The notes beneath the pieces were generated by a model, which ran no database searches, was not told the origin of the DNA, and saw only the letters and a list, made by a program, of their open reading frames with translations. Positions 3,390 to 60,337 of a DNA stretch of 64,000 nt are shown here, one piece after another. Made by a program: the position numbers and the translations under genes. Position 1 is the first letter of the stretch. Every line of letters starts with the position of its first letter. This DNA comes from Haloflavibacter putidus (GTDB taxonomy: Bacteria; Bacteroidota; Bacteroidia; Flavobacteriales; Flavobacteriaceae): NCBI RefSeq assembly GCF_006546625.1, contig NZ_VIAR01000003.1, forward strand, positions 248,001-312,000, given 5' to 3'.

Positions 3390-4565
3390 TTATTTGGCAA
3401 GGCGCAGACCGTTAAACTGCCAACGTAAATCCGGATGAAAAAAGTTGCGATAAGTTGGTCTGGTATGTTTTTCTGCCGTAGCAACAGAGCCACCGCGTAA
3501 TACTTTTTGGTTTACCATAAATTTACCGTTGTATTCGCCCAAAGCGCCATCTGCTTTACAATAATTGGGGTAGGGCAGGTAAGTACTTTCTGTCCATTCC
3601 CACAATTGTCCCCAATCAAATTTTTCTTGGGCTATTTCCCATTCAAATTCGGTTGGCAAACGCAGGTTTTTCCATTGGGCAAAAGCAAAAGCTTCATAAT
3701 AAGAGAGATGGGTAACCGGTGCTTTTGGGTTTATCTCTTCTATTCCGCTCAAAGCGTAACGATGCCATTTATTTTCTATTTTGTGCCAATATGCCGGTGC
3801 ATTTATTTGGGTTTGTTTTAGCCATTCCCAAGCTTCAGAATGCCATAGCAATACTTGGTCGTAACCTCCGGCTTCCATAAACTCCAAATATTCTTGATTG
3901 GTTACGAGTTTATTCGATATAAAAAAATCTTGAACATACACTTTGTGTCGCCCCATTTCATTATCGTAACAAAAAGCGCTTTCATCTTTTTTAAAACCAA
4001 TTTCGTAAACACCTTCTTCTATACTATGCCATTTTTGAATGTGTTTTTCTTCTTTTGCTTCCGTAAAGTTTTTCTCGTAAACGGGTAGTAGAGGGTTGTT
4101 ACCTAAAATATACTTAATATCTGTAAGTAATAATTCTTGGTGTTGTTTCTCGTGGTGAATACCAATTTTTAGCACGCCTTCCAGTTCTTCAGAAATAGAA
4201 TTGTTTTCTAAAAAATCTTTTAATTCTTTGGTTACGTAATGTCGGTATTTGTAAATATTTTCTACGGTAGGTCGCGACAAATTACCACGATTGGTACGTA
4301 CAACTTTTTCTCCTACACTTTCGTAATAGCTATTAAAAACGTAGGCATAATCGGGGTCGTAAAGTTTGTATCCCGGTTTATTGTTTTTTAAAATAAATTC
4401 TTCAAAAAACCAAGTGGTATGTCCTAGATGCCATTTTGGTGGCGAAACAAATTCTACCGGTTGTATTACGTAATCTTCAATAGCCAATGGCATGCAAATT
4501 TGCTCGGTTTTTTTTCTGGTTTTTGTAAATAATTCTAAAGTTGGTGTAGTGGTAATCATAAACAT
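3390..4565 (-). CDS. egtB: Ergothioneine biosynthesis sulfoxide synthase EgtB
   Basis: Non-haem iron enzyme joining a thiol substrate to hercynine in an O2-dependent step. The N-terminal DinB-like domain (about 1-170) carries the probable iron ligands His49 (LGHTTW) and His137/His141 (HHEKQHQE). The C-terminal formylglycine-enzyme-like domain (about 185-391) contains WEWTEST and ends in LRGGS...NGLRLAK. The protein has 391 residues and stops after the FGE domain. It lacks the fused methyltransferase of the ovothiol enzyme OvoA, fitting the separate egtD just downstream. The start may instead be the ATG at 4559. No glutamate-cysteine ligase EgtA or amidase EgtC lies nearby, so the sulfur donor (cysteine or gamma-glutamylcysteine) is open. 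Confidence 0.93.
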   Translation of the reverse strand: MFMITTTPTLELFTKTRKKTEQICMPLAIEDYVIQPVEFVSPPKWHLGHTTWFFEEFILKNNKPGYKLYDPDYAYVFNSYYESVGEKVVRTNRGNLSRPTVENIYKYRHYVTKELKDFLENNSISEELEGVLKIGIHHEKQHQELLLTDIKYILGNNPLLPVYEKNFTEAKEEKHIQKWHSIEEGVYEIGFKKDESAFCYDNEMGRHKVYVQDFFISNKLVTNQEYLEFMEAGGYDQVLLWHSEAWEWLKQTQINAPAYWHKIENKWHRYALSGIEEINPKAPVTHLSYYEAFAFAQWKNLRLPTEFEWEIAQEKFDWGQLWEWTESTYLPYPNYCKADGALGEYNGKFMVNQKVLRGGSVATAEKHTRPTYRNFFHPDLRWQFNGLRLAK

Positions 4566-4819
4566 AGCGCTTTAAATGGTGCGTCCTCTCAAAGTTACGA
4601 TTTTATTATTACCAAAATGTTGTAAGATTGTTAATGCAAAGAAAAGGCATTAAAAAACTAAAATTTATGGAATTGTATATATTTCAGGATTTAACCTGCT
4701 TTTTGACAAGCAGATGAAAAGCAATAAGAATTTTAGGATAGTAACTTCCTTGCTTCTTGAAAATATTAGGTTTAACAATCCTTTTCCGTAAAGAAAGCTG
4801 TTGTATGAAAATCAATTCT
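4566..4819. other. Intergenic stretch upstream of egtB
   Basis: This 254-base gap holds the egtB promoter region and the 3' flank of the TonB-domain gene. No further gene was found. It carries one copy of the over-represented 10-mer at 4784-4793, close to the end of the TonB-domain gene. Confidence 0.6.
4784..4793 (+). repeat. Copy of recurring 10-mer TTCCGTAAAG (intergenic)
   Basis: An exact intergenic copy of the motif that recurs across the window on both strands. It is preceded by a T-rich flank. Confidence 0.7.
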
Positions 4820-5224: not shown

Positions 5225-5236
5225 AATCGTGGGGTT

Positions 5237-6282: not shown

Positions 6283-6309
6283 TTGTTCAGTGAAAACTAA
6301 AACGCAGAC

Positions 6310-6321: not shown

Positions 6322-6344
6322 TAAGTGTTTCTAACCTGTACTTG

Positions 6345-17649: not shown

Positions 17650-19896
17650 ATGGAATCTAATATTATCTATCTTCCCATTGGTCTAGCTCTTTTGGGAATA
17701 GTGTTTATGCTGGTTAAAGCAGCTTGGGTAAAAAAACAACCAGGAGGCGATCAAAAAATGCTTGGTATTTCCAAAAGTATAAAAGAAGGCGCACTTGCTT
17801 TTTTACACGCAGAATACCGTTTGCTACTGGTTTTCGTTATCATAGCCTCTGTCGCATTATTTTATGTTTCTACTTTGGTAGACTCTACCAGTTGGATGAT
17901 AGTTCCCTCTTTCATAATAGGCGCCTTTTTCTCTGCCCTTGCGGGGAATATAGGAATGCGCATAGCAACAGAAGCAAACGCTCGTACTGCAGAAGCAGCT
18001 AAAACTAGTTTACCGCAAGCTTTAAAAGTCTCGTTTAACGGCGGAACAGTAATGGGATTGGGAGTAGCCGGTTTGGCAGTATTGGGACTAAGTTTACTAT
18101 TCTTGTTTTTTGTAGGACAGTTTATAATAGAGCCGGATAATTTCTATTTAGAAATGACAAAGGTTTTAGAAACCTTGGCCGGTTTTTCTTTAGGAGCAGA
18201 ATCTATTGCTCTTTTTGCTAGAGTAGGCGGCGGTATTTACACCAAAGCCGCAGATGTGGGGGCAGATTTAGTTGGTAAAGTTGAAGCCGGTATACCGGAA
18301 GACGATCCACGAAATCCGGCAACAATTGCAGATAACGTAGGTGATAATGTAGGCGATGTAGCCGGAATGGGTGCAGATTTATTCGGGAGTTATGTTGCTA
18401 CGGTTTTGGCGGCAATGGTTTTGGGTAATTACCTTATTCGCGATATGGCGAGTGTAGCAAGTTTTCAAGATGCTTTCAATAATATGGGGCCTGTTTTATT
18501 ACCGCTAGTTATTGCGGGAGTTGGGGTTTTAGCTTCCATTATAGGAACGCTTATTGTTAAAATAAACTCCAATTCTGCTAAAGAACCGCAAGTACAAGCA
18601 GCTTTAGATAGAGGTAATTGGTTAGCAATTTTACTAACTATTATAGCAACTTGGTTTTTAATAGACTGGATGTTACCCAACACTATAAATATGGTGTTTT
18701 TTGGAGAGGGTGTGCAACAAATACCTTCTACAAACGTATTTTGGGCAGCTTTAATTGGCTTGGCTGTAGGAGCTTTAATTTCTATGGTTACCGCATACTA
18801 CACGAGTTTAGGTAAAAAACCGGTTTTAAATATTGTAAAAAATAGCTCTACAGGAGCAGCAACCAATATTATTGCAGGTTTGGCAGTTGGTATGAAATCT
18901 ACTTTTGCTTCTGTTTTATTATTTGCGGCCGCAATTTATGGCTCTTATGCTTTAGCTGGGTTTTACGGAGTAGCTTTAGCCGCTTCTGCTATGATGGCCA
19001 CTACAGCTATGCAATTGGCAATAGATGCTTTTGGTCCAATTGCAGATAATGCCGGAGGCGTGGCAGAAATGAGTGAGTTGCCCGATGAGGTGCGAGAACG
19101 TACAGATATTTTAGATTCGGTTGGTAATACTACTGCAGCTGTAGGTAAAGGTTTTGCAATAGCTTCTGCAGCGCTTACCGCTTTGGCTTTATTTGCTGCT
19201 TATGTAACCTTTACGGGAATAGATGGTATAAACATTTTTAAAGCAGATGTTTTGGCTGCTTTATTTGTAGGCGGAATGATTCCGGTTATCTTTTCCGCTT
19301 TAGCGATGGAATCTGTAGGGAAAGCTGCTATGCAAATGGTAAAAGAAGTGCGAAGACAGTTTAAAGAAATTCCTGGTATTTTAGAAGGTACCGCAGTACC
19401 GCAATATGCAAGATGTGTCGAGATTTCTACCAAAGCCGCTTTAAAAGAAATGATCTTACCGGGATTAATTACAATAATTACGCCAATTATTGTAGGAATT
19501 ATATTTGGCGCAGAACCGCTTGGTGGTTATATGGCAGGCGTTTGTGTGTCTGGCGTTATGTGGGCTATTTTTCAAAACAATGCTGGTGGAGCTTGGGATA
19601 ATGCTAAAAAATCTTTTGAAGCCGGCGTAGAAATCGACGGTAAAATGACGTATAAAGGTAGCGAAGCACATAAAGCTGCAGTAACTGGCGATACGGTTGG
19701 CGATCCTTTTAAAGATACTTCCGGACCGTCTATGAATATTTTAATAAAACTCACGTGTTTGGTAGGTTTGGTAATGGCGCCAATTTTGGGCCATATTCCG
19801 GAAAAGGAAGAAGATTTGGGAAATAAAATACCACCACAAGAGCAATTACAAAACAAAACAGAAACACAGGAAAAGGCAGTAGTAAACCTTCCGTAA
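17650..19896 (+). CDS. hppA: Membrane-bound ion-pumping pyrophosphatase
   Basis: Couples pyrophosphate hydrolysis to transport of H+ or Na+ across the inner membrane. The 748 residues contain about 16 membrane segments. The substrate site includes [22 protein letters not shown] written in family order, then [35 protein letters not shown] has Ala where K+-independent enzymes carry Lys, so a K+-dependent enzyme is predicted from established family rules. Whether it pumps H+ or Na+ was not decided. The C-terminal tail (about 720-748) is charged and Gln-rich and looks like a lineage-specific extension. Confidence 0.95.
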
Positions 19897-22317: not shown

Positions 22318-23106
22318 TTAATTTGGTAAGGTTAATTGATATTGATAGATTTTTTTACCGCTGTAAATATAAAGGTAATCGTTTTGCAAATAAAAATCTT
22401 TAACGGCATTTTGAGAAATAGAAAGCGGAATAAATTGCTTTTTTTCTTCTAGCAATAATGCTATTTTGCCCTGCTCATTTACAGCTGCCAATCTATTGTT
22501 GTTTTCTGATATTTTTTTATACCCGTTATTGGGTAAAGTGCCAACTAGGCTCCCGTAGGTATTATAGACTTTTATATTCTGTTTGCTTAAAATCCAACAA
22601 AAATTAAAATTGCTTTTATGGTTTAAAACGTTTTCTTGTAAAGGCTGCGAATGGGCCAAAACTCTTTCGCGGTAATAATCGAATAGTTCTAAACGCTGCA
22701 AATCTATATTATAAATCCACAAACTACGGTTTTTTCCGGTTGTGGCAGATGCAAGGTTTCTAAAGTTTTGTATTTGCGAAAAATTAATACGGTCTATCTC
22801 GTTTAGATTATTGTCTAAGATTACAACCGTGTTGGTGTTTTTATAAAAGAGTGTAATTTTAAGCGGATTAATAATATCTGCAGAGGTTATATTACCCAAC
22901 TGCAAAGCTTGAAATTCTTGTTTTTTGGTGGCTCCTATTTTATAAAAAACCTGCTGATTTATTCCGTAAAGGTTATTAAAATTATCTACCCCAATAAAAC
23001 GTTCCATTTTAAAAGGAATTTCTGCCCGCATTTGGGTTTCTACACTTTGCGGAAAAGCATCTTTTACCAATAATATTAAGAAAATAAAATAAATAACTTT
23101 TCTCAT
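22318..23106 (-). CDS. Secreted conserved hypothetical protein, propeller-like
   Basis: A 262-residue protein that I do not recognise. It begins with a signal peptide (about 1-19, ending AFPQ). Short repeated strand units with the look of beta-propeller blades follow, for instance FIGVDNFNNLYGIN, VVILDNNLNEIDRI, LWIYNIDLQRLELFDYY and IKVYNTYGSLVGTL. No catalytic motif was seen. It heads the unit that includes the deoxynucleoside kinase and the fatty acid hydroxylase. Confidence 0.65.
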   Translation of the reverse strand: MRKVIYFIFLILLVKDAFPQSVETQMRAEIPFKMERFIGVDNFNNLYGINQQVFYKIGATKKQEFQALQLGNITSADIINPLKITLFYKNTNTVVILDNNLNEIDRINFSQIQNFRNLASATTGKNRSLWIYNIDLQRLELFDYYRERVLAHSQPLQENVLNHKSNFNFCWILSKQNIKVYNTYGSLVGTLPNNGYKKISENNNRLAAVNEQGKIALLLEEKKQFIPLSISQNAVKDFYLQNDYLYIYSGKKIYQYQLTLPN

Positions 23107-25788: not shown

Positions 25789-25798
25789 CTTTACGGAA
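25789..25798 (-). repeat. Copy of recurring 10-mer (intergenic)
   Basis: Reads CTTTACGGAA on the plus strand, in the 231-base gap between the SLC13 start and the end of the hydroxyacid reductase gene. Nothing else was recognised in that gap apart from the expected SLC13 promoter region. Confidence 0.7.
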
Positions 25799-25842: not shown

Positions 25843-26778
25843 TTAGTATCCTTTTTGCTTATCTATTTGGTACAATATTTTTTCTTCAGATTGCATTCGA
25901 TCATAATTTTCAACAATCTGTTTACTTACCCTTTTAGGATGGGTAACGCTGGCAATATGTGGGGTGATGGTTATTTTGGGATGCGACCAAAAAATATGTT
26001 CTTGTGGCAAAGGTTCTTCCTGAAAAACATCTAAGGCTGCACCGCTAAGTTGCTGGTTATTTATGGCTTCCAGCAAATCATTTTCTTTTAAATGTGCTCC
26101 ACGGCCAACATTTATAAGATAAGCTCCTTTTTTTAATTGCTTAAACAAAGAAGCAGATAAAATGCCTTGGGTTTCTTTGGTTAAGGGTAATAAGCAAACT
26201 AAAATATCGCATTGCTGTAAAAATTCCGTAAAGGCATCTTTTCCTACAAACGTCTTAATATTTTTATGGTTTTTGTTAGAATTGGCATAACCAATAACCT
26301 TAAAATCGCTTTTATATAAGGTTTCGCCCACGGCTTGGCCTATAGTTCCAAACCCTAAAATACCCACACAAGTTTCTTCCGGTCGCACATATTTGATTGG
26401 TTTCCATTCGCTTTCTTGTTGTTTGGTGTAATAGAAAGAAATGTCCCGTAAATGGTTTAAGCAACTGGTTAATACAAAAATACCTAAATCTTTTTCCAAT
26501 TGTTTATCTTCTACTTTGGTAACAACAACGTTTTCAGCAATTGTACTGTTGTTAAAAATATGCTTTACGCCCGCGCCCATAGAAGCAACGACTTTTAGGT
26601 TAGGATAATTCTGAAAAACTTCTCGAGGCGGATTCCATGTTAAAATAAATTCTGTTTTCTCTCGCTGGGTATCTTGCGGATATACTTCTACTTGTAGTTT
26701 TTCGTCTTGCTGTTTTAAAGCTTCTACCCAAGCATCTACATCGCGATTAGGAGCGATAATTACAATTTTCTTTGCCAT
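25843..26778 (-). CDS. Glyoxylate/hydroxypyruvate reductase A-like dehydrogenase
   Basis: A 311-residue NAD(P)H-dependent D-2-hydroxyacid dehydrogenase. The Rossmann motif is GILGFGTIGQAVG, and the catalytic set is seen in LINVGRGAHLKENDLL (Arg), DVFQEEPLPQEH (Glu) and TPHIASVTHP (His). The set and length resemble GhrA, which reduces glyoxylate and hydroxypyruvate. It lies 22 bases after the acyl-CoA dehydrogenase gene and may share its mRNA. One copy of the recurring 10-mer lies within the gene at 26224-26233. Confidence 0.87.
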   Translation of the reverse strand: MAKKIVIIAPNRDVDAWVEALKQQDEKLQVEVYPQDTQREKTEFILTWNPPREVFQNYPNLKVVASMGAGVKHIFNNSTIAENVVVTKVEDKQLEKDLGIFVLTSCLNHLRDISFYYTKQQESEWKPIKYVRPEETCVGILGFGTIGQAVGETLYKSDFKVIGYANSNKNHKNIKTFVGKDAFTEFLQQCDILVCLLPLTKETQGILSASLFKQLKKGAYLINVGRGAHLKENDLLEAINNQQLSGAALDVFQEEPLPQEHIFWSHPKITITPHIASVTHPKRVSKQIVENYDRMQSEEKILYQIDKQKGY

Positions 26779-32347: not shown

Positions 32348-32385
32348 AATTCCGTAAAGCAAGTAGATGCTTTCTTTACGGAATT
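32348..32385. terminator. Bidirectional terminator between tex and marC, built from two inverted 10-mer copies
   Basis: AATTCCGTAAAG (32348-32359) pairs with CTTTACGGAATT (32374-32385), leaving a 14-base loop. Each arm contains an exact copy of the recurring 10-mer, one per strand. It separates the convergent genes tex and marC and overlaps the last bases of marC at 32384. An inner alternative stem (AAAGCA/TGCTTT) is also possible. Confidence 0.75.
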
Positions 32386-34578: not shown

Positions 34579-34588
34579 TTCCGTAAAG
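34579..34588 (+). repeat. Copy of recurring 10-mer TTCCGTAAAG (intergenic)
   Basis: An exact copy in the divergent gap between metK and the acyloxyacyl hydrolase-like gene, about 80 bases before the -7 element of the latter. Its left flank is T-rich. Confidence 0.7.
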
Positions 34589-34679: not shown

Positions 34680-35771
34680 ATGAAAAAATGGCTTTTTTTA
34701 GGCGCAGTCTTTTGTTGTATGCTTGGTTTTTCGCAAGAAGAAAATTCTTTGCACGAGTTTAGCTTAGATTATTTTTACGGAAGCATTTTAGAGCATAACA
34801 AAGCTATTGGCCATTTAATTACCAAACACCCCGAAGGCGTTATTTTAAGCTACAACCGTAAAACCTACGGAAAAAATGCTTGGGAAGCTGCTTTTAATTA
34901 CCCGGATTATGGTGTTTCGGCTATTTTTCAAAATATGAAAAATCCGTATTTGGGCGAAAATATAGGTCTTTATGCACATTACAACTTTTATTTTTTAAAC
35001 AGAAAATTACAATTTAGGTTGGGGCAGGGTTTGGCTTATGCTACCAATCCGTACGATGCTAAAAATAATTACGAAAATAATGCTTACGGGTCGCATTTTT
35101 TGGCTTCTACTTTTGTGGCGCTTAATTATAAACAAGCAAATATCTTTAGAGGGTTGGGCGTACATTTTGGTTTAAGCGTGATACATTATTCTAATGCCAA
35201 TGTAAAAGCGCCAAATACGAGCACCAATACCTTGGCGGCCAATATTGGTATAAATTACTTGTTGGATGCAGATAAAGAATTGACCTACAAAACTTTTGAA
35301 AAACAGAAATTTATAGAGCCAATTCGTTTTAATTTTATTGCACGAGGCGGCATAAATGCCAGCGATGTGATAGGCATGAAAAGTTATCCTTTTTATACCT
35401 TTGGGATGTTTGCAGACAAGCGTCTGAGTTTAAAAAGCTCTATCTTGTTGGGTACAGAAGTATTTTTTTCGCCAATGCTTAAAGAGCTTATCCGTTACCG
35501 GGGAATAGCCTATCCCGAAGAAAATATAAGCGGTGACGAATCTAGCACGCGGGCAGGGATTTTTGCCGGCTATCAATTGCATTTAGGTAAAAACTCTATT
35601 GTTGCCAATGGAGGCTATTACTATTATTATCCGTACGATTTTGAAGGACAAGTTTATTTGCGTGCCGGCATTCAACGTGAAATTTCTAAACATCTTTTTG
35701 CAAGTATTTCCGTAAAGGCACACGCAGCAAAGGCTGAAGCGGTAGAATTTACAATTGGGTATAGATTATGA
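34680..35771 (+). CDS. Acyloxyacyl hydrolase / PagL-like lipid A deacylase
   Basis: A 363-residue outer-membrane barrel protein with a signal peptide (about 1-18, ending GFSQ). Residues His169 and Ser171 in VIHYSNAN match the His-x-Ser pair of PagL-type lipid A 3-O-deacylases. The third catalytic residue was not identified. If active, it would remove acyl chains from lipid A. Its last 4 bases overlap the start of the head-GIN lipoprotein gene (ATGA), so the two are co-translated. Confidence 0.78.
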   Translation: MKKWLFLGAVFCCMLGFSQEENSLHEFSLDYFYGSILEHNKAIGHLITKHPEGVILSYNRKTYGKNAWEAAFNYPDYGVSAIFQNMKNPYLGENIGLYAHYNFYFLNRKLQFRLGQGLAYATNPYDAKNNYENNAYGSHFLASTFVALNYKQANIFRGLGVHFGLSVIHYSNANVKAPNTSTNTLAANIGINYLLDADKELTYKTFEKQKFIEPIRFNFIARGGINASDVIGMKSYPFYTFGMFADKRLSLKSSILLGTEVFFSPMLKELIRYRGIAYPEENISGDESSTRAGIFAGYQLHLGKNSIVANGGYYYYYPYDFEGQVYLRAGIQREISKHLFASISVKAHAAKAEAVEFTIGYRL

Positions 35772-36517
35772 AATATTTTCTAATAATAGTAATGAGTTTT
35801 ATTTTATCTGCTTGCAGTGCTGATTGGACGCCGGATTGTTTCCGTAAAGAAGGAGAAATTATAAGCAAAGAAATTGCTTTGGTAAATTTTGAAGAAATAG
35901 AAGTACACGCCGGGGTAGAACTTTTCTTAAGCAAAGCAAATACGCAAAAAGTAGTTTTGGAAACCGGAGAGAATTTGGCAGAAGACATCACTTTTAAGTT
36001 AGTTGGGAATAAATTGGTTATAAAAAACAAGAATACCTGCAACTTTGTGCGCGACTATAAAGTTACCAAAGTATATATAGAAAGTCCTGATTTAAAAGTC
36101 ATACGAAATGCGAGCAGTTGGACGATAAATAGTTTAAATACGCTGACTTATGATACTTTGCAATTAATTTCTGAAGATGCCAGTTTGGGAGATACCGTAA
36201 AAACCGATGGCGATTTTGATTTAGATCTACAATGTAACAGTTTAACTATTGTAAGCAACGGCTTAAGTGATTATTTTTTAGATGGCGAGGTTGCCAATTT
36301 TAGCATAAATTTTTACAGTGGCGACGGCAGGCTAGAATCAGAAAATTTGCTTGCAGAAAATATAGAGGTTTACCATCGCGGTTCTAATACTATGGTAATA
36401 AATCCGCAGCAATCGCTTATTGGGAAAATAGTGAGCACTGGCAATATTCTTGCTAAAAACGAGCCACCTTTGGTACAAGTAGAAGAATTGTATACCGGAA
36501 GATTGCTTTTTGAATAA
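35768..36517 (+). CDS. Head-GIN domain (DUF2807) lipoprotein
   Basis: A 249-residue lipoprotein. The lipobox LSAC places the acylated cysteine at Cys16. A right-handed beta-helix-like DUF2807 domain follows (about 40-240), with repeating strand-turn units such as FEEIEVHAGVELFLSK, LVIKNKNTCNF and NIEVYHRGSNTMVIN. Proteins of this family are called putative adhesin head domains, but no activity is established. It overlaps the upstream gene by 4 bases. Confidence 0.82.
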   Translation: MKYFLIIVMSFILSACSADWTPDCFRKEGEIISKEIALVNFEEIEVHAGVELFLSKANTQKVVLETGENLAEDITFKLVGNKLVIKNKNTCNFVRDYKVTKVYIESPDLKVIRNASSWTINSLNTLTYDTLQLISEDASLGDTVKTDGDFDLDLQCNSLTIVSNGLSDYFLDGEVANFSINFYSGDGRLESENLLAENIEVYHRGSNTMVINPQQSLIGKIVSTGNILAKNEPPLVQVEELYTGRLLFE

Positions 36518-36883: not shown

Positions 36884-37783
36884 TTAACTTTCCTGCGTAA
36901 GCGTTCTAAACAAATCTTCCAAACTAGTGTGTTTTTGGTGCAATTGGAGAATTTTTAGTCCGTTATCGTGGGCAAAATCAAAAATCGCGGGGCGCATATC
37001 TTTGGTGGTATCAAAATAAAGCTCATATCTAAAACCGCCGGTATTTACTACTTTTTCCAATTTTGGAAGTTTTTGTAAGGCTATCATTTCTACTCTAAAA
37101 TCAAACTCTACCACAACTACTTGCTCTTGACTTTCTGCCAATTGGTTGAGTTGTTTATCTGCAACAATGCTGCCTTTATTTATAATAATAGCTCTATCGC
37201 ACACGGCTTCTACTTCTTGCATAATATGCGTAGAAAGAAAAACGGTTTTGGTTTGCCCAATTTCTTTAATAAGCTCTCTAATTTCTACCAATTGATTAGG
37301 GTCTAAACCGGTGGTAGGCTCGTCTAAGATTAAAACTTCCGGATCGTGCAATAAAGCGCTGGCCAAACCTACACGCTGCCGAAAGCCTTTAGATAATTGC
37401 TCTATTTTTTTATTTGCTTCTGGCAATAATCCGGTTTGTTCTATTACTTTTTCTACCTGTTTTTTAGAGACCTTATAGATATTGGCATTAAAATTTAAAT
37501 ATTCGCGTACGTACATTTCTAAGTACAACGGATTGTGCTCTGGTAAATAACCAATTTTTCTTTGCAATGCCAGTTTTTGGGTACTTACCTCCAAATCTTC
37601 TACTTTTGCCCAACCTTTGGTGGCTGGTAAATATCCGGTTAAAATTTTCATTAAAGTAGATTTCCCCGCGCCATTAGGGCCTAAAAATCCTACAATTTGA
37701 CCAGTTTTTACTACAAAAGAAACTTGGTTTAAAGCTTTTTGTTTTCCGTAAAGTTTAGATAAATTATTTACTTCAATACCCAT
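36884..37783 (-). CDS. gldA: Gliding motility ABC transporter ATP-binding protein GldA
   Basis: ATPase of the GldA-GldF-GldG ABC transporter associated with gliding. Of 299 residues, the Walker A motif GPNGAGKST is at 35-43, the signature is LSKGFRQRVGLA (Lys-Gly in place of Gly-Gly), and VLILDEPTTGLD is Walker B. The start at 37783 begins MGIEVNNLSKLYG. The frame is open to 37840, but those 19 residues do not resemble the family. gldF and gldG are not next to it. One copy of the 10-mer lies at 37744-37753. Confidence 0.88.
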   Translation of the reverse strand: MGIEVNNLSKLYGKQKALNQVSFVVKTGQIVGFLGPNGAGKSTLMKILTGYLPATKGWAKVEDLEVSTQKLALQRKIGYLPEHNPLYLEMYVREYLNFNANIYKVSKKQVEKVIEQTGLLPEANKKIEQLSKGFRQRVGLASALLHDPEVLILDEPTTGLDPNQLVEIRELIKEIGQTKTVFLSTHIMQEVEAVCDRAIIINKGSIVADKQLNQLAESQEQVVVVEFDFRVEMIALQKLPKLEKVVNTGGFRYELYFDTTKDMRPAIFDFAHDNGLKILQLHQKHTSLEDLFRTLTQES

Positions 37784-37933
37784 AAACTTAATTTTAGGTA
37801 AAAATACGTAATTAGATGTGGCAGACTTTACTTTTAGCATAGAAAACTATAAAAAAGTAACCGCTTTTCTCTAAAAATATAGTTATTTTGTGCTATACTG
37901 CCGTAGGAAATAGAGGTAGGTAAAATATATTTT

Positions 37934-40495: not shown

Positions 40496-42400
40496 ATGAA
40501 AAAACTCCCTATACTATTTATTAGCCTTTTATCTATCTTTCAAATCTACGCGCAAAAAGAGATTGCACCCCTTGAGCAAAGCGATTATCGCGACGCAAAT
40601 GCGGTAATTAGAAAGTACGAAAAGAAAGTAGAATTTAATAACTTTTCTTCTCTAGATGTAAAAGAGTATAAGCTTACAACTGTTTTAAATGCTAAAGGCA
40701 ATAAGGCTGCAAGGGCTTATGCTTATTACGATGACGATTTGCGCTTAAAAAATGTAGAAGCTATTATTTATGACGCCAATGGGCAGCGTATAAAAAAGAT
40801 AAAAGAAAAAGATTTTAAAGACGAGAGCGCAGTAGATGGTTCTACGTTATATTCAGATTCTCGTATAAAATATCTAAATTATAAACCAACGGGTTATCCT
40901 TATTCGGTAGCTTTCATTAAAGAGTATAAAACAAAAAACACTTCTTTTGTGCCAGGGCATAGTTTTATACCAGGATACGATATTTACGTGCAAGAGTCGA
41001 GTTATAAATTATTATTTGATAAGACTGAAACTACTTTTAATATAAAAGAGAAGAATTTTGAAAATTTTGAAATAGAAAAACAAGAAAATCCTGCTGGTAT
41101 ATTTTATACTTTAAAAGAAGTTGAGCCTATTCCTAACGAGAATCTTAACCTTCCATGGCAGCAAATTTTACCTTGGGTTTCGGCAATGTCGCATAATTTT
41201 CATTTATCCGGTTATAAAGGTGAAAATATTTCTAATTGGGAAGGTTTGGGAAAATGGTTTCACGACCAGGTTTTAGAAAACAGGACAGATTTACCTGCCG
41301 CTACCATAAAAAAAGTGCAAGCTTTAACCGCAAACGTAGAAGACCCGATAGAAAAAGCCAAAATTGTTTATAATTATGTACAAAATAATACACGCTATAT
41401 AAGCGTTCAGGTAGGAATTGGCGGATACCAACCAATAGAAGCGAGCGAGGTAGACGAAATGAAATATGGCGATTGTAAAGGGCTTTCCAATTACACCCAA
41501 GCTTTGCTAAATGCCGTTGGCGTGCCGGCCTATTACACGCACGTAGAGGCGGGAAAAACAAAAATAGATTTTGAAGAAGACTTTGCAAGTTTGGCTCAAG
41601 GCAACCACGTTATTTTGGCCATTCCATACAAAAACGATTATAAATGGATAGATTGCACCAGCCAAACACAACCTTTCGGCTTTTTGGGCGATTTTACAGA
41701 CGATAGAAGAGTTTTGGTAATGAAACCCGATGGCGGAGAGATTGTAAAAACGCCGGCCTACATAAACGAAGATAATTATCAAAAAACAACCGCTTCAGTC
41801 CATTTTACAGAAAACGGTAAGGTAAACATAGAGGGAGAAATTATTACTAAAGGCAATCAATATAATAGTAGGCAATATCTAGAGCATTACTCGCCCAAAG
41901 ATCTTGAAAAAAGAGACTTTCGATATTGGTCTTCTATAGATAATTTAGAAATAGAAGAACACAGTTTTCACAACGACAAGGAAGCTGTAAGCTTTACGGA
42001 AACTTTTAAAATTAGCGGCAATAATTTTGTAACCCAAACCAACAATCATCTGTTTGCGGCCATAAATCCAATTAGTGCCATAACCTACATTCCGCAGCGT
42101 TATCGCAATAGGAAAACCCCATTTCATATTTCGCGAGGTTATCTAGACGAAGATAGTATAGAGATTTTTATTCCTAAAAATTATACAATTGCCTCTAAGC
42201 CAGAAAATGTTACTATAGAAACAGAATTTGGTAGTTATACCATGTCACTTCAGCAAAAAAAGAACAGCTTAGTATACACAAAAAGAGTTCTAATTAAAGA
42301 CGGAGTGTATCCCAAAGAAAAATATGCTGCTTATAGAGAGTTTAGAAAAAAAATAAGCAATGCAGAAAATCAAAAATTAGTATTGAAAAAACGCGATTAA
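40496..42400 (+). CDS. DUF3857 / transglutaminase-like secreted protein, active-site Cys present
   Basis: A 634-residue envelope protein with a signal peptide (about 1-19, ending IYAQ). It has an N-terminal DUF3857 domain (about 50-210), a transglutaminase-like core (about 270-390) and a C-terminal beta-rich region. The presumed nucleophile is Cys327 in KYGDCKGLS. His and Asp follow in GNHVILAIPY and KWIDCTS. Activity is unknown in this family. It is followed 3 bases later by a paralogue. Confidence 0.85.
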   Translation: MKKLPILFISLLSIFQIYAQKEIAPLEQSDYRDANAVIRKYEKKVEFNNFSSLDVKEYKLTTVLNAKGNKAARAYAYYDDDLRLKNVEAIIYDANGQRIKKIKEKDFKDESAVDGSTLYSDSRIKYLNYKPTGYPYSVAFIKEYKTKNTSFVPGHSFIPGYDIYVQESSYKLLFDKTETTFNIKEKNFENFEIEKQENPAGIFYTLKEVEPIPNENLNLPWQQILPWVSAMSHNFHLSGYKGENISNWEGLGKWFHDQVLENRTDLPAATIKKVQALTANVEDPIEKAKIVYNYVQNNTRYISVQVGIGGYQPIEASEVDEMKYGDCKGLSNYTQALLNAVGVPAYYTHVEAGKTKIDFEEDFASLAQGNHVILAIPYKNDYKWIDCTSQTQPFGFLGDFTDDRRVLVMKPDGGEIVKTPAYINEDNYQKTTASVHFTENGKVNIEGEIITKGNQYNSRQYLEHYSPKDLEKRDFRYWSSIDNLEIEEHSFHNDKEAVSFTETFKISGNNFVTQTNNHLFAAINPISAITYIPQRYRNRKTPFHISRGYLDEDSIEIFIPKNYTIASKPENVTIETEFGSYTMSLQQKKNSLVYTKRVLIKDGVYPKEKYAAYREFRKKISNAENQKLVLKKRD

Positions 42401-45003: not shown

Positions 45004-46218
45004 ATGACGCGGCAACTTTCAGCCTTACAAAGCCAAAACGAATTAGAATGGCAAATAAGTGGTTCTAAAAGCGAGTCTAACCGCTTACTAATTTTACAAG
45101 CTTTCTATCCGCAAATTAAAATTGCAAACCTCTCTAACAGCAACGATACACAGGTTCTAAAAAAAGCCTTACAAAATAGTTCTAACATCGCAGATGTAGG
45201 GCATGCGGGTACAGCTATGCGTTTTCTAGCCGCTTATTTTGCATCACAAGCTACAGCAGAAGTTTTTTTAACAGGCAGTCAAAGAATGCAAGAACGCCCC
45301 ATAAAAATTTTGGTAGAAGCTTTACGGAATTTAGGTGCAAAAATAGAATATGCCAAACAAGAAGGTTTTCCGCCTTTGGTAATTAAACCTGCCGCGTTAA
45401 CCAAAAGTAAAGTAAGTTTGCCTGCAAACATTAGTAGCCAATATATTTCTGCATTATTATTAATTGCGCCACGGCAAAAAAACGGTCTTCAAATTGGGCT
45501 AACGCAAACCGTTACCTCGTTGCCATATATAGAAATGACGTTAAATTTGCTACAGCAACTAGGCGCAAAAATCAATTTTCAAAATAATACAATTAGCGTA
45601 GATTATTTAAAAGAACCAATTAAAAATAATTTTCAAGTAGAACCAGATTGGAGTTCGGCGTCTTATTTTTATAGTTTGGCGGCTTTAAGCAAAACTGCAA
45701 ACATTTCTTTGCCGGGGTTTTTAAAAAACAGTCTCCAAGGTGATATGCAAGTTGCAGAAATTTATAAGCAATTAGGCGTAAAAACCAGCTTTACGGAAAC
45801 GGGAATCCGACTTAAAAAACAAGCTGCGAATAATTATCCTAAAAATTTAGAATTAGATTTAAGCAACACGCCAGATTTGGCACAAACCATTGCGGTTAGC
45901 TGTTTAGGTTTAAACATTTCTTGCAATCTTAAAGGCTTACACACGTTAAAAATTAAAGAAACCGACAGACTACAAGCCCTAAAAACCGAATTAGAAAAAT
46001 TTGGAGCAAAGGTTAATATTACATCCGATTCCTTACAACTTCTGCCTGCAGAAAAATTAGTAGAAAATGTGCAGGTAGAAACCTATCAAGATCATCGTAT
46101 GGCAATGGCTTTTGCACCTTTGGCAGTAAAAACTTCCATATATATTCAAAATCCTGAAGTGGTAAAAAAATCATTTCCAGATTTCTGGAAGGCACTCGCA
46201 GCCGCCGGTATTAGGTAA
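45004..46218 (+). CDS. aroA: 3-phosphoshikimate 1-carboxyvinyltransferase (EPSP synthase)
   Basis: Shikimate-pathway enzyme transferring enolpyruvate from PEP to shikimate-3-phosphate. It has 404 residues against 427 in E. coli. Motifs in order are SGSKSESNRLLIL, GHAGTAMRFLAAYFA, NISSQYISALLL, LKIKETDRLQALK and YQDHRMAMAFAPL. Together with the DAHP synthase fusion it makes two pathway steps in this window. Two copies of the 10-mer lie inside (45320-45329, 45789-45798). Confidence 0.97.
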   Translation: MTRQLSALQSQNELEWQISGSKSESNRLLILQAFYPQIKIANLSNSNDTQVLKKALQNSSNIADVGHAGTAMRFLAAYFASQATAEVFLTGSQRMQERPIKILVEALRNLGAKIEYAKQEGFPPLVIKPAALTKSKVSLPANISSQYISALLLIAPRQKNGLQIGLTQTVTSLPYIEMTLNLLQQLGAKINFQNNTISVDYLKEPIKNNFQVEPDWSSASYFYSLAALSKTANISLPGFLKNSLQGDMQVAEIYKQLGVKTSFTETGIRLKKQAANNYPKNLELDLSNTPDLAQTIAVSCLGLNISCNLKGLHTLKIKETDRLQALKTELEKFGAKVNITSDSLQLLPAEKLVENVQVETYQDHRMAMAFAPLAVKTSIYIQNPEVVKKSFPDFWKALAAAGIR

Positions 46219-50706: not shown

Positions 50707-50716
50707 CTTTACGGAA
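50707..50716 (-). repeat. Copy of recurring 10-mer (intergenic)
   Basis: Reads CTTTACGGAA on the plus strand, 35 bases after the polyprenyl synthetase stop. It lies before the dnaG promoter. Confidence 0.7.
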
Positions 50717-50810: not shown

Positions 50811-52772
50811 ATGATAAAAAAAGCCACGATAGACCAAGTTTTTGATGCCGCAAGGGTAGAAGAAGTAATTGGCGATTTTGTGCAACTAAAAAAATCTGGT
50901 ACCAATTATAAAGGCTTGAGTCCGTTTACAGACGAGCGCACGCCAAGTTTTATGGTTTCGCCGGTAAAGCAAATCTGGAAAGATTTCTCAAGTGGAAAAG
51001 GTGGTAATGTCGTAGCTTTTTTAATGGAGCACGAACATTTTAACTATCCCGAAGCTATAAAATACCTGGCAAAAAAATACGGAATAGAAATAGAGGAAAC
51101 CCAGCAAACAGACGAACAAAAACAACAAGCAGACGAGCGCGAAAGTTTATTTTTGGTAAGCGAGTTTGCCAAAGATTACTTTCAAAGAATGTTGCACAAA
51201 ACAGACGAGGGCAAATCTGTTGGTTTAAGTTATTTTAAAGAGCGCGGTTTTTCTGCGCAAACCATAGAGAAATTTGATTTAGGTTACTCGCCCAACCAAT
51301 GGGATGCCTTTACTGCAGAGGCTTTAAAAAAAGGTTATAAAGCAGAATTTCTAGAAAAAACCGGCTTAAGCATTTTTAAAGAAGAAAAACAATTTGATCG
51401 CTTCCGCGGAAGGGTTATTTTTCCCATTCACTCTATGTCCGGGCGGGCTTTAGGTTTTGGCGGCCGTATTTTAGAAACCAACAAAAAAGCAGCAAAATAC
51501 CTAAACTCGCCAGAGAGCGATATTTACCATAAAAGCAAGGTACTTTACGGAATTTATTATGCCAAGCAAGCCATTGCCAAAGAAGATAATTGTTATTTGG
51601 TAGAAGGTTATACAGATGTTATTCAAATGCACCAAGCCGGAATTGAAAATGTGGTTGCCTCGTCCGGTACGGCTTTAACCCCAGAGCAAATTAGATTGAT
51701 AAATCGGCTTACAAAAAATATCACCTTGCTTTTTGATGGCGACGAAGCCGGATCACGCGCTTCTTTACGCGGGGTAGATTTGATTTTAGAACAAGGCATG
51801 AACGTTAAAATCTGCAATTTCCCGGAAGGCGAAGATCCAGATAGTTTTGCCAAAGCCAATACTACAGAGGACATGCAAGATTACCTGAGAAAAAATGCGA
51901 TGGATTTTATTCGGTTTAAAGCTTCTTTGTTAATGAAAGAAGCCAAAAAAGACCCGATTAAAAAAGCAGAGGTAATTAGAGATATGGTAAACAGTATTGC
52001 AAAAATTCCAGACACCATTAAGCAAGAAATTTACTTAAAAGAATGTACTGCCATAATGGATATTTCTGAACAGGTGCTTTACAGTTCTTTGGCGCAAGTA
52101 CAGGCAAAACAGAGCGGCAATACCAATTATAAAAACAAACCGCAGCCAAGGCAAGAAATGCACTTGGTAAAACCGGAGCAGCAAAAGCCAAAAGTAGATC
52201 AGCAATACCAATTGGAGCGACAAATTATTAGTTTGTTGTTGCGTTACGGAAATATACAAGACGAGTTTGAAGATTTTATTTTAAAAGCCGCAGAAGACGG
52301 CGATTTGCAATTGGAAGAAGAAATACAAACGGCTAAAGTATACGAGAAAATATTTCTGGATTTGCAGGAAGATGAAATAGAATTTACCAACACCAATTTT
52401 AAAGAACTCTACCAATTAATTATAGAGAAATTTAATCAAAACCAAGAGCTGAATATTAGAGAGTTGGTCAATTCGGTTAAACCGGAATTAGCTTCAGAAA
52501 TAACTTCTATTATAATGGAAGAAGAACGCGAAAGCTTGCATAAATGGCACGAACAAGATATTTATGTTACAGATAGAAGCGAGCTAGAACCTAGAGAAGT
52601 AAACGAAACCATCTTAAATTTACGCCGATTTTTAATTAAAAAGAAAGTAAACGATCTTTTAGAAAGCATAAAAGAAAAACGTACAGAATCTAATACAGAT
52701 GTAATTCAAGAAACGATGGACTACAAGAGTTTGGAAGTTTTAATTTCGCGCAAATTAAATAGAGTGATCTAA
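50811..52772 (+). CDS. dnaG: DNA primase with degenerate zinc-binding domain
   Basis: Makes RNA primers at the replication fork. The 653 residues have an N-terminal CHC2-type region (about 1-100), a TOPRIM catalytic core (about 260-345, VEGYTDVIQMHQAG and LLFDGDEAGSRAS) and a C-terminal helicase-binding part (about 460-653). The usual zinc ligands are missing. The stretch normally read as CPFH is SPFT (Ser37, Thr40), and the second pair is replaced in KDFSSGKGG. The protein looks otherwise intact. Confidence 0.95.
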   Translation: MIKKATIDQVFDAARVEEVIGDFVQLKKSGTNYKGLSPFTDERTPSFMVSPVKQIWKDFSSGKGGNVVAFLMEHEHFNYPEAIKYLAKKYGIEIEETQQTDEQKQQADERESLFLVSEFAKDYFQRMLHKTDEGKSVGLSYFKERGFSAQTIEKFDLGYSPNQWDAFTAEALKKGYKAEFLEKTGLSIFKEEKQFDRFRGRVIFPIHSMSGRALGFGGRILETNKKAAKYLNSPESDIYHKSKVLYGIYYAKQAIAKEDNCYLVEGYTDVIQMHQAGIENVVASSGTALTPEQIRLINRLTKNITLLFDGDEAGSRASLRGVDLILEQGMNVKICNFPEGEDPDSFAKANTTEDMQDYLRKNAMDFIRFKASLLMKEAKKDPIKKAEVIRDMVNSIAKIPDTIKQEIYLKECTAIMDISEQVLYSSLAQVQAKQSGNTNYKNKPQPRQEMHLVKPEQQKPKVDQQYQLERQIISLLLRYGNIQDEFEDFILKAAEDGDLQLEEEIQTAKVYEKIFLDLQEDEIEFTNTNFKELYQLIIEKFNQNQELNIRELVNSVKPELASEITSIIMEEERESLHKWHEQDIYVTDRSELEPREVNETILNLRRFLIKKKVNDLLESIKEKRTESNTDVIQETMDYKSLEVLISRKLNRVI

Positions 52773-53669: not shown

Positions 53670-54635
53670 ATGCTAAGAAATTTTTGTCTTATTTTTATAC
53701 TTGTATGCGCGTTTTCTGCTTGCGAAAGCAGGGGTAAGCTGGAGGCAGAGATTGCCAAAATACCGGTAGATTTACGCCTGCAACGTTTTGATAAAGATTT
53801 TGCCCAAGCCCAGCCGGAAGATTTGCCACGCCTAAAAAAAGAATATTCGTATTTGTTTCCTAAGTCTTTTCCAGATTCTGTTTGGGTAGGAAGAATGAAT
53901 GATACTATACAACAAGAAATTAATAGGGAAGTAGCAAAAGCTTTCCCGGATTTTAAAGAAGAAAAACAAGCTATAGAAAACCTGTTTAAGCATTTAAAAT
54001 TTTATTTTGATAGTTTTAAAACGCCGCAGGTAGTAACCATTACATCAGAAGTAGATTATCATAATAAGGTCGTAGCAGCAGATAGTTTGTTGCTAATTAG
54101 TCTGGATACGTATTTGGGTAGAGACCATAAATTTTATAAAGGAATCGAAAAATACATCCGCAAAAATTTCCGTAAAGAACAAATAACACCAGATATTGTT
54201 TTTGAGTATGGCAGACAACTTATTCCCAATACGCAATCTAGAACTTTGCTGGCGTCTATGATTTATTACGGAAAGATTTTATATCTAAAAGACAAGCTTT
54301 TGCCTAAAAAACCCGATCACGAAAAAATTGGGTATACGCAAGAAGAAATAGATTGGGCACAAGCCAACGAAGAGCAACTTTGGCGTTACTTTATAGAGCG
54401 TGAATTGTTATATTCTACAGATTCTGGTTTGCAGAGACGTTTTATAAATTTGGCGCCTTTTACCAAATTCCGGTTGCAGTTAGATAGCGAAAGTCCGCCG
54501 CAACTTGGTCAATATATTGGTTGGCAAATTGTACGGCAGTTTATGGAAAAGAATGAAGAAATAACTTTGCCGCAGCTTTTAAAGCTGGATGCCGAGTATA
54601 TTTTTAAAAATTCGAATTATAAACCTAGAAGATAA
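53670..54635 (+). CDS. gldB: Gliding motility lipoprotein GldB
   Basis: A 321-residue lipoprotein needed for gliding in Flavobacteriaceae. The lipobox FSAC puts the acylated cysteine at Cys18. The rest is a mostly helical soluble domain with IPVDLRLQRFDKDFA, EYSYLFPKSFPDSVW and GQYIGWQIVRQFM. The precise role is unknown. gldC follows after 5 bases, the usual arrangement. Confidence 0.92.
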   Translation: MLRNFCLIFILVCAFSACESRGKLEAEIAKIPVDLRLQRFDKDFAQAQPEDLPRLKKEYSYLFPKSFPDSVWVGRMNDTIQQEINREVAKAFPDFKEEKQAIENLFKHLKFYFDSFKTPQVVTITSEVDYHNKVVAADSLLLISLDTYLGRDHKFYKGIEKYIRKNFRKEQITPDIVFEYGRQLIPNTQSRTLLASMIYYGKILYLKDKLLPKKPDHEKIGYTQEEIDWAQANEEQLWRYFIERELLYSTDSGLQRRFINLAPFTKFRLQLDSESPPQLGQYIGWQIVRQFMEKNEEITLPQLLKLDAEYIFKNSNYKPRR

Positions 54636-56660: not shown

Positions 56661-56666
56661 TTTCAA

Positions 56667-58047: not shown

Positions 58048-58052
58048 AAAAA

Positions 58053-58373
58053 ATGAAACAAGGAATTTATGCTTTGCTAAAAGGTCGTTTTTTAATAAGC
58101 GACGACGCCATGAAAAACTGGCGGTTCATTTTGTTTTGCACCTTGTTGGCAATTATAATGATTGCTTTTTCGCACAACGCAGAAAAAAAAGTACACGAAA
58201 TTGCCAGAATTAATAAAGAAGTGAAAGAATTGCGTAGTGAATTTGTAGATACGCGCAAACGCTTAATGCAGTTAAAAATGGAGTCTACTATTATTAATCG
58301 GGTTTCTGCCTTAGGTATTAAACCATCGGAAACGCCACCGCAAAAACTTATCATAAAAAGAAATTTAAAATAA
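58053..58373 (+). CDS. ftsL: FtsL-like cell division protein
   Basis: A 106-residue protein with a single membrane segment at about 25-42 and a coiled-coil segment after it (EIARINKEVKELRSEF onward). Topology, size and position between rsmH and ftsI match FtsL, although sequence conservation in this family is always low. It overlaps ftsI by one base. Confidence 0.82.
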   Translation: MKQGIYALLKGRFLISDDAMKNWRFILFCTLLAIIMIAFSHNAEKKVHEIARINKEVKELRSEFVDTRKRLMQLKMESTIINRVSALGIKPSETPPQKLIIKRNLK

Positions 58374-60337
58374 TGACCACAGAAAAAGGCATATTATACA
58401 GATTGTATTTGGTGGCGGCACTTATGTTTGTGTTTGCCTTTGCTGTTGGGTTTAAACTTTTGAATATTCAGTTTGTAGAAGGCGATAAATACGAAGAACT
58501 GGCAGAAAAAAGAACTTATAAAGATTTTACAATACCTGCCAATCGTGGCAATTTATACGATGCCAATGGTAATTTATTGGCAACCTCTGTACCAGAATAT
58601 GATATTCGGTTTGATGCTGTTACCGTTTCCGAAAAGAATTTTGAAGAAAACTTAAAGCCACTTGCCAGAGAATTATCGAATCTTCTAGGAAAACCAACTT
58701 CCTATTATATAGCCAAATTACGTAAAGCAAGAGTACACAAAAACCGGTATTTATTAATAGCACGCAGTCTTAGTTATTCAGAATATGTGAAAATGCGCGA
58801 GTTTCCTGTTTTTAATCTTGGCGCGTATAAAGGTGGTTTTATCGCAGAACAACGTACGGTTAGAGAATTGCCAATGGGTAAAATTGGCGAACGTACGGTA
58901 GGTTACGGTCAAGCCGGATTAGAAGGCGCTTACGACCAATATTTGCGCGGTAGAAACGGGCACCGTTTAAAACAGAAAATTGCGCAAGGCCAATGGAAAC
59001 CAATTAGCGACGCCAACGAGGTAGAACCACAAGATGGTTTAGACGTGGTTTCTACCATAGATGTAAATATTCAAGATGTTGCACACCACGCATTGTTAAC
59101 GCAGGTAGAAAAGTTTAAAGCAGATCACGGCACTGTAGTGGTTATGGAAACCAAAACCGGCGAAATTAAAGCAATGGCCAACTTAGGTCGTACAGATTTA
59201 GGTACGTATTACGAAAAAAGAAACTACGCTATATGGGAATCACACGAGCCGGGTTCTACTTTTAAACTTATGGCTATGGTGGCAGCTTTAGAAGATAAAG
59301 TGATAGATACAAGCATGGTAATAGATACCGAAAATGGTCGCGTAAAATATTACGATAGAGTGGTGAGAGATTCTAGACTTGGTGGCTACGGAAAAATTTC
59401 TGCCGCGCGCGCTTTTGAAGTATCTTCAAATACAGCTTTTACCAAAATGATTTATAACGGGTATAAAGACAATCCGGAAGCCTTTGTAAACCGCTTGGAT
59501 AATATGGGTTTAACCAAAAAAATTGGTTTAGATATAAAAGGAGAAGGCGCGCCAAAAATTCCACATCCAGACGATTCTAATTGGTATGGTACAACTTTGC
59601 CGTGGATGTCTTTTGGATATGGCGTTTCGCTAACGCCGTTGCAAACTTTAGCTTTTTATAATGCTATTGCAAATAATGGGGTTATGGTAAAACCCAGATT
59701 AATCAAAAAGGTAAAAGATCGCGACCGGTTGGTAAAACATTATGACAAACCAATAGTTCAAAACGCCATTTGTTCTAAAGAAACCGCTTTAAAAGCAAAA
59801 GCAATAATGCAACATACCGTAGAGCGAGGTACGGCTTCTAATATCTTTACGGAAAACTTTTCTATGGCGGGAAAAACAGGGACCTGTTTAACCAACTACG
59901 GCAAAGGAAAAGAAGGTTCTAGTTATATAGCTTCTTTTGCGGGATATTTTCCGGCAAACGACCCTAAATATTCTTGCATAGTAGTAATAAGTAAACCCGA
60001 TACAAAAATTGGTTATTACGGCAGCACAGTAGCCGCGCCGGTTTTTAAAAGCATTGCGCAAAAAATATATACGGCAACACCAAAAACAGACAGCTTTGAA
60101 TCTATTGAGGTGCAAAACCCAAACATAGAAAAAAATTATAAAAAGTTTTATGCTTTGGCGCACGATGCTAAAACCACGATGCCAAATTTGGTAGGTATGC
60201 CCACTATGGATGCTATTGCTTTGTTAGAAAATATGGGCTTGCAGGTAGAAGCCAATGGTTTTGGAATGGTAAAACACCAATCTATAGACTTTGGAGAAAA
60301 AATTAACACTAATCAAAAAATTAAATTGTCCAGTTGA
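58373..60337 (+). CDS. ftsI: Division-type penicillin-binding protein with PASTA domain
   Basis: Septal peptidoglycan transpeptidase, 654 residues. One N-terminal membrane anchor (about 12-28) is followed by a dimerisation domain. The transpeptidase domain has SxxK (Ser in EPGSTFKLM), SxN (SSNTAF) and KTG (AGKTGT). A C-terminal PASTA domain starts at about 600 (TMPNLVGMPTMDAIALLENM). It overlaps murE by 4 bases. Confidence 0.94.
   Translation: MTTEKGILYRLYLVAALMFVFAFAVGFKLLNIQFVEGDKYEELAEKRTYKDFTIPANRGNLYDANGNLLATSVPEYDIRFDAVTVSEKNFEENLKPLARELSNLLGKPTSYYIAKLRKARVHKNRYLLIARSLSYSEYVKMREFPVFNLGAYKGGFIAEQRTVRELPMGKIGERTVGYGQAGLEGAYDQYLRGRNGHRLKQKIAQGQWKPISDANEVEPQDGLDVVSTIDVNIQDVAHHALLTQVEKFKADHGTVVVMETKTGEIKAMANLGRTDLGTYYEKRNYAIWESHEPGSTFKLMAMVAALEDKVIDTSMVIDTENGRVKYYDRVVRDSRLGGYGKISAARAFEVSSNTAFTKMIYNGYKDNPEAFVNRLDNMGLTKKIGLDIKGEGAPKIPHPDDSNWYGTTLPWMSFGYGVSLTPLQTLAFYNAIANNGVMVKPRLIKKVKDRDRLVKHYDKPIVQNAICSKETALKAKAIMQHTVERGTASNIFTENFSMAGKTGTCLTNYGKGKEGSSYIASFAGYFPANDPKYSCIVVISKPDTKIGYYGSTVAAPVFKSIAQKIYTATPKTDSFESIEVQNPNIEKNYKKFYALAHDAKTTMPNLVGMPTMDAIALLENMGLQVEANGFGMVKHQSIDFGEKINTNQKIKLSS

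Follow-up and report, generated by a model that had tools for sequence, protein, structure and literature searches.

A recurrent 10-base word in a Mesonia-like flavobacterium as the core of a candidate DNA uptake sequence

Copies of the word in the window and in the genome

The 64-kb stretch of flavobacterial DNA analysed here (the window; GC content 36.2%, close to the 37% assumed in the initial annotation) holds 18 exact copies, counted on both strands, of the 10-base word TTCCGTAAAG, which that annotation had proposed as a DNA uptake sequence, with a Chi-like recombination site or a segregation motif as alternatives. It had listed 17 copies, all of them rightly, and had overlooked an 18th at 22962..22971 (+). 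The copies within genes are read in different frames. The frame giving Phe-Thr-Glu is found at 4059..4068 (+) in the gene 3390-4565(-), at 26224..26233 (+) in the gene 25843-26778(-), at 41992..42001 (-) in the gene 40496-42400(+), at 45789..45798 (-) in the aroA-like gene 45004-46218(+), and at 59845..59854 (-) in the penicillin-binding-protein gene 58373-60337(+). The aroA-like gene carries another copy, at 45320..45329 (-), in the Leu-Arg-Asn frame. Leu-Tyr-Gly is the reading of the overlooked copy in the gene 22318-23106(-) and of those at 37744..37753 (+) in the gene 36884-37840(-) and at 51543..51552 (-) in dnaG (50811-52772, +); Phe-Arg-Lys that of 35840..35849 (+) in the gene 35768-36517(+) and 54168..54177 (+) in the gene 53670-54635(+); and Ser-Val-Lys that of 35708..35717 (+) in the gene 34680-35771(+). 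The intergenic copies are at 4784..4793 (+), 25789..25798 (-), 34579..34588 (+; divergent genes on either side) and 50707..50716 (-; upstream of dnaG), together with an inverted pair, 32350..32359 (+) and 32374..32383 (-), between a Tex-like gene ending at 32299 and the convergent gene 32384-33028(-). Elsewhere in the window there are a sodium-translocating pyrophosphatase (17650-19896) and a cell-wall cluster (58373-63036: the penicillin-binding protein, MurE and MraY).

Dinucleotide shuffles of the window gave a mean of 0.32 copies of TTCCGTAAAG and at most 2, and its 8-base core TCCGTAAA occurs 31 times against 3.3 expected, 18 times within TTCCGTAAAG and 13 times elsewhere (11 of these 13 had been listed; those at 18962 and 19890 had been missed). 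Of all 10-mers occurring six or more times in the window, TTCCGTAAAG exceeds its order-3 Markov expectation by the largest factor, 42-fold. The excess extends to the genome that holds the window (G000, hereafter the home genome; 2.92 Mb in 53 contigs): 370 forward and 376 reverse copies were counted (746 in total), compared with 4 + 4 = 8 copies of the same word read backwards, which served as a control (the reversed word). In a detailed sample of 814,241 bases of this genome, window included (814 kb), to which the analyses of the home genome below refer unless stated otherwise, there are 195 copies against 4.8 expected from the order-3 Markov model, with a mean spacing of about 4 kb, and one-base variants of the word are enriched too. 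Judged by sequence, the home genome is that of a Mesonia-like member of the Flavobacteriaceae; its DnaG has its best matches among named genomes at 71-75%, mostly in Mesonia records.

Placement, strand and flanks

Genes in the sample were delimited by a longest-frame rule, without a gene finder. The 135 genic copies occupy all five stop-free classes of frame and orientation, the sixth being closed by a TAA stop, and the claim that the copies do not depend on one codon frame holds well beyond the window. The preference for the CTTTACGGAA orientation on the coding strand that had been suspected is real (88 of the 135 genic copies), and it is compatible with the closure of one of the six classes by TAA, the ratio of 88:47 agreeing with the 3:2 ratio of the open classes (p=0.25). 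Intergenic DNA makes up 11.1% of the bases and holds 60 of the 195 copies (2.8-fold enrichment, p=1e-13), and in stretches of G005, one of the 15 other genomes of the genus (G001-G015, hereafter the sisters), 13 of 38 copies are intergenic against 14.2% of the bases (p=0.0016). These numbers bear on the explanation that the count is inflated by codon bias, by a motif in proteins or by dispersed repeats. Words of that kind do occur in the relatives (TTCCGYTAG, TTCCGAAG and TTCAGCAA, mostly genic and in few frames, see below), but TTCCGTAAAG is found in every stop-free frame, is in excess between genes and has no flanking sequence in common, and where close species differ in its copies, they do so by single bases. 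We regard this explanation as hardly credible.

The initial annotation saw in the inverted pair at 32350/32374 a terminator, and in such pairs a hallmark of uptake sequences. The window pair indeed folds into a hairpin on both strands (-17.9 kcal/mol on the plus strand, z -4.4; -15.9 on the minus strand, z -4.3), and UUUUU follows on the minus strand, where the gene ends; therefore the hairpin may terminate that gene, although a simple terminator scan lists no terminator at this place. In the sample the arrangement is uncommon: seven inverted pairs within 100 bp were found against about 2.3 expected, but they hold only 12 of the 195 copies, and direct pairs within 100 bp number 4, also against about 2.3 expected. 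By type of intergenic region, there are 12 copies in 17.2 kb between convergent genes, 18 in 18.2 kb between divergent genes and 28 in 51.4 kb between tandem genes (2 of the 60 intergenic copies belong to none of these classes), and thus no excess between convergent genes was detected in the sample.

A bias of TTCCGTAAAG towards one orientation in the replichores was not found in the sample, where polarity was judged from GC skew and from neighbouring copies, not from a mapped origin or terminus. Only 72 of 156 copies agree with the G-rich strand (39 of the 195 were dropped, lying in regions with a skew below 0.01); neighbouring copies are on the same strand in 97 cases and on opposite strands in 91; and contig C33, with a positive GC skew in all but one of its 16 20-kb bins, carries 35 copies on the plus and 42 on the minus strand. 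This lack of polarity, together with the patchy distribution described below, weakens both alternatives named in the initial annotation. A segregation or nucleoid motif, whether an FtsK-orienting polar sequence (KOPS)-like element or the site of a widespread DNA-binding protein, would organise the chromosome, and the presence of TTCCGTAAAG on all contigs examined as well as the conservation of its sites would suit it; however, besides the GC-skew result, the strands are balanced in the whole genome (370:376, with contigs in arbitrary orientation) and the word is near background in 8 of the 15 sisters, so that we consider this role very improbable.

Outside TTCCGTAAAG the copies of the home genome have no sequence in common, only shifts in composition. 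Read on the strand that begins with TTCC, positions -11..-7 are GC-richer, positions -6..-1 are AT-rich, and positions +11..+15 are AT-rich with a bias towards A. Set against 10,499 composition-matched decoys, the pooled copies have AT fractions of 0.556 against 0.632, 0.741 against 0.641, and 0.769 against 0.643, respectively; each shift is significant in this comparison, and also when the 135 genic and the 60 intergenic copies are taken separately. An A/T-rich flank before TTCC had been noticed in the window. In the 38 copies from the stretches of G005 the corresponding values, which are descriptive, are 0.55, 0.75 and 0.79. The signature is compatible with a double-stranded site whose shape could be read by a protein, and it recalls the AT tracts in the signal of H. 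influenzae (PMC7811141). A bipartite motif was considered as well, but the upstream excess of CAGC is weak (23 against 12) and was not retained as a fixed element.

The strongest rival is a Chi-like site, at which an AddAB-like helicase-nuclease would halt degradation and start recombination, the word being kept for repair. The home genome has two frames of 938 and 1059 amino acids with PDDEXK_1 matches 5 kb apart (G000:C11:232935-238864), which we infer to be an AddAB-like pair, and the mean spacing of about 4 kb and the conservation of orthologous copies also fit. A site that is read on one strand would not be expected to be enriched between genes or to have flank signals on two sides, and Chi is usually stable across larger groups. 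TTCCGTAAAG, however, shows both the intergenic enrichment and the two-sided flank signals, lacks strand polarity, and is nearly missing in much of the genus (8 of the 15 sisters hold 4-18 copies and a ninth 27). On balance a Chi role appears unlikely.

Conservation and distribution among related genomes

Sharing of copies between species was compared with that of 10-mers of the same composition at orthologous places in aligned stretches. Between the home genome and G005 (52.8 kb aligned, 88.6% identity), 18 of 19 home copies and 18 of 23 G005 copies are shared, whereas only 336 of 966 control words are (35%); at the larger distance to G003 (63.6 kb, 70.4% identity) 7 of 18 home copies and 7 of 9 G003 copies are shared against 52 of 1066 controls (4.9%); and with G015 the numbers are 3 of 11 and 3 of 4 (p=0.05 and 0.002) against 81 of 1026. 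G003 and G015 share 3 of 3 copies (control 53 of 504). No home copy is shared with the word-poor genomes G004 (0 of 7) and G011 (0 of 5), or with G001 (0 of 3), in which the one-letter variant ATCCGTAAAG (the A-variant) is the more frequent word and one of the three home copies reads ATCCGTAAAG. Within the A-variant group (G001, G006, G012), common sites were found in 4 of 4, 1 of 1 and 1 of 1 cases, which is uninformative, with controls at 47-64%. The 10-bp bins beside TTCCGTAAAG are 77-88% identical between the home genome and G005, that is, not raised, and the constraint is therefore limited to TTCCGTAAAG itself. All five copies present only in G005 are one base off in the home genome, and the sole copy present only in the home genome is three bases off in G005. 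Given this sharing at orthologous places and the single-base differences, copies of TTCCGTAAAG persist over long divergence, while close species differ by point changes. A former uptake sequence, the drive behind which has ended and whose copies are decaying relics, would be consistent with the enriched one-base variants and with the intermediate counts of some sisters (27-263), but in the home genome and G005 the copies are much better conserved than control 10-mers, and we see little chance of this explanation being right.

Three gaps of more than 30 kb without TTCCGTAAAG were found in the sample, against 0.12 expected, and a fourth extends over 24.6 kb. In the annotation of the gaps, which covered 40 proteins out of a larger number of frames, the gap on contig C4 turned out to be the ribosomal-protein operon region (S12, S7, EF-G, L3, L4, L2, S3, L5, L6, S5, L15, SecY, S4, RpoA, L17 and others). 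Among the proteins examined, the gap on C33 consists largely of IF-2, respiratory, ruvB and other core genes, and that on C2 is mixed, with hydrolases, an outer-membrane protein, a UvrA-like protein and unassigned proteins. Mobile elements were considered as a cause of the gaps and rejected, because the proteins examined are core proteins in the C4 gap and largely so in the C33 gap. Coding DNA under constraint is reported to hold few uptake sequences (PMC7811141), and in an informal comparison the C4 and C33 gaps agree with that report.

The copy number in sister species, a comparison suggested by the initial annotation, differs widely, from 4 to 804 among the 15 sisters: 804 copies in G005, 263 in G015, 255 in G003, 70 in G001, 70 in G006, 69 in G012, 27 in G007 and 4-18 in the other eight. 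Four of the 16 genomes of the genus, the home genome included, thus have at least 255 copies. Among 397 genomes drawn from the family, of which three belong to this genus, the 394 genomes of other genera hold at most 59 copies each; this maximum is that of G143 (reversed word 29), and G325 has 56 (reversed word 16). The four TTCCGTAAAG-rich genomes did not form one side of a branch in any of 200 bootstrap trees of six proteins, although this non-grouping does not follow from the best-supported branches by themselves and some rows are incomplete. Such a distribution outside a single clade, together with the shared sites, suggests that TTCCGTAAAG has an older origin and was later lost and changed.

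A candidate for such a change is the A-variant ATCCGTAAAG, with 169 copies in G001, 154 in G006 and 162 in G012, where it exceeds TTCCGTAAAG (169:70, 154:70 and 162:69), and 97 in the home genome and 102 in G005. In stretches of the three A-variant genomes 21 copies were found against 0.57 expected, but 2 of the 21 are intergenic and 10 of the 19 genic ones share a frame; this concentration and the lack of intergenic enrichment in the stretches covered call for caution in regarding the A-variant as a dialect. Three other words were tried as dialects and dropped. TTCCGYTAG is enriched in several word-poor genomes (158 against 14 reversed in G013, 220 against 64 in G011), but 42 of 43 copies in the stretches covered are genic, most of them in two or three frame classes. 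TTCCGAAG, enriched in genus g43 and in Aequorivita, is genic in 30 of 31 and 55 of 56 copies, mainly in two to three classes, and TTCAGCAA is intergenic in 17 of 171 copies, without enrichment, and mostly in two classes. The last word has an excess of about four-fold in species poor in TTCCGTAAAG (208 against 53; L010, L011, L029 and stretches of G002, G004, G010, G011 and G014), and its neighbouring copies are on opposite strands in 94 cases and on the same strand in 51. Other repeated words were seen in stretches of G003 (L110, L165, L166, L236), where TTCCGCGAA occurs 8 times against 0.3 expected and CCGCGAAAGC 6 times against 0.03, perhaps as a small dispersed repeat, and in stretches of G008 and G009 (L115, L116 and others), where CAGCATGACA, ATAGCTATCG, GTCTTGACAC and further words with 7-13 copies each against at most 0.2 expected suggest dispersed repeats.

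Import machinery and the case for an uptake sequence

ComEC and DUF5689 were each found in all 16 genomes of the genus, and DprA in the home genome, the only one searched for it. On the same contig as ComEC (G000:C52), a 929-amino-acid protein with a CarboxypepD_reg domain and a weak match to the Plug domain of TonB receptors (L231:6780-9569) is directly followed by a DUF5689+DUF5017 lipoprotein of 448 amino acids (L231:9599-10945). In Riemerella anatipestifer, RA0C_RS04920 and RA0C_RS04915, with the same domain make-up, are reported to be essential for transformation (PMC8459023), and tonB mutants to have reduced transformation (PMC8383284). By their domain make-up and gene order, the two proteins of the home genome are likely orthologs of the Riemerella pair. 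A candidate second surface protein is encoded on the same contig (L234:8696-10429), some 32 kb away from comEC; it has 577 amino acids and carries a sorting tail for type IX secretion; it matched DUF5689 with 38.5 bits in the genome search and was not listed by the Pfam scan.

The DUF5689 lipoproteins are 27-69% identical between species of the genus (three near-identical groups set aside), and tyrS is 72-85% identical to the home gene in the 12 sisters where it was found (G005 excluded). The DUF5689 tree is strongly at odds with the six-protein species tree, as if alleles had been exchanged between species. The four TTCCGTAAAG-rich genomes and G004 fall in one DUF5689 clade with a support of 0.99, and the four do not form one clade in the species tree. 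An allele that tracks TTCCGTAAAG was considered and is not supported, in view of the word-poor G004 (5 copies) and by G283, G057 and G071 nearby, which fall in the same part of a larger DUF5689 tree drawn without support values.

Taken together, frame independence, lack of polarity, intergenic enrichment, the retention of orthologous copies, their gain through point changes and the varying counts among the sisters best support an uptake sequence. TTCCGTAAAG is probably the core of a candidate DNA uptake sequence that works like the DNA uptake sequences (DUS) of Neisseriaceae and the uptake signal sequences (USS) of Pasteurellaceae and is kept by biased uptake. Some part of the transformation machinery at the cell surface would prefer double-stranded DNA that bears the word; DNA from kin would then enter as a single strand via ComEC and be recombined by DprA and RecA; and biased uptake and recombination would spread and restore copies born by point mutation (molecular drive).

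Several observations weigh against this. The known DUS and USS systems work through type IV pili, and PF00437 (PilB/T2SSE), the sole pilus marker searched, has no match over the Pfam cut-off in the four TTCCGTAAAG-rich genomes (the home genome, G005, G003 and G015); it is above the cut-off in 4 of the 16 genomes of the genus, G002, G012, G013 and G014. An excess of copies between genes was not seen in the stretches of G003 and G015 (3 of 18 copies intergenic) or in those of the A-variant group (5 of 29). ComEC and DUF5689 are also found in TTCCGTAAAG-poor genomes of the genus, and the presence of the machinery therefore does not predict the word; likewise G283, G057 and G071, from other genera but in the same part of the DUF5689 tree, have 21, 25 and 12 copies (reversed word 14, 20 and 13).

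Like TTCCGTAAAG, the Neisseriaceae DUS is a word of 10 bases for which intergenic DNA is permissive. N. meningitidis and N. gonorrhoeae have about 1,900 copies of it, and it has related dialects in sister species and some inverted pairs (PMC3630211, PMC7811141), to which the A-variant and the pairs of TTCCGTAAAG may correspond; its sequence and phylum are unrelated, however, only 12 of the 195 copies of TTCCGTAAAG stand in inverted pairs, and PF00437 has no match over the cut-off in the home genome. The Pasteurellaceae USS likewise combines a core with AT tracts and gains copies by point mutation; its reported scarcity in coding DNA under constraint may have a parallel in the C4 and C33 gaps, and H. 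influenzae has 1,465 copies of the 9-bp core compared with 746 of TTCCGTAAAG in the home genome (PMC7811141). Again the sequence is unrelated, no PilB/T2SSE ATPase over the cut-off was found, and the AT stretches of TTCCGTAAAG are on both sides of the core. With its different sequence and no pilus marker over the cut-off, the TTCCGTAAAG system is set apart from both. With Chi, TTCCGTAAAG has in common that it is short, over-represented and non-palindromic in a genome with an AddAB-like pair; it differs in being non-polar, in its flank signature and in its patchiness among sisters. Riemerella is similar in its machinery, with ComEC, DprA and a CarboxypepD_reg outer-membrane protein adjoining a DUF5689+DUF5017 protein (PMC8459023), and a preference for self-DNA is reported for R. 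columbina, the transformation of which was competed by its own DNA but not by equal amounts of R. anatipestifer or E. coli DNA (PMC7965970). No uptake sequence is known from Riemerella; the k-mer table of PMC7965970 has A/T-rich words only.

A ComP-like minor-pilin receptor is unlikely in the home genome, where PF00437 is absent at the cut-off. As a more specific and more doubtful proposal, which we hold only tentatively, TTCCGTAAAG might be an independently evolved uptake sequence of Bacteroidota that is read without type IV pili, in the manner of a nutrient importer, by a TonB-dependent, SusC-like outer-membrane channel (the 929-amino-acid protein) and the DUF5689+DUF5017 surface lipoprotein; the word would date back to an ancestor shared by at least some species of the genus, several lineages having since lost or altered it.

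To our knowledge, uptake sequences are well established in only two families, both proteobacterial and both users of type IV pili. Among the matches listed in the open literature, and apart from the k-mer table of PMC7965970, we found no convincing uptake sequence proposed for Bacteroidota. If the proposal is true, an independent origin in a phylum with another import machine would suggest that transformation in general leads to biased uptake and molecular drive. It would also provide a genetic handle on DNA import in flavobacteria and make the role of SusC/D-like pairs as DNA carriers testable, and the species of the genus, with many, few or no copies, would offer a natural series for distinguishing drive from selection.

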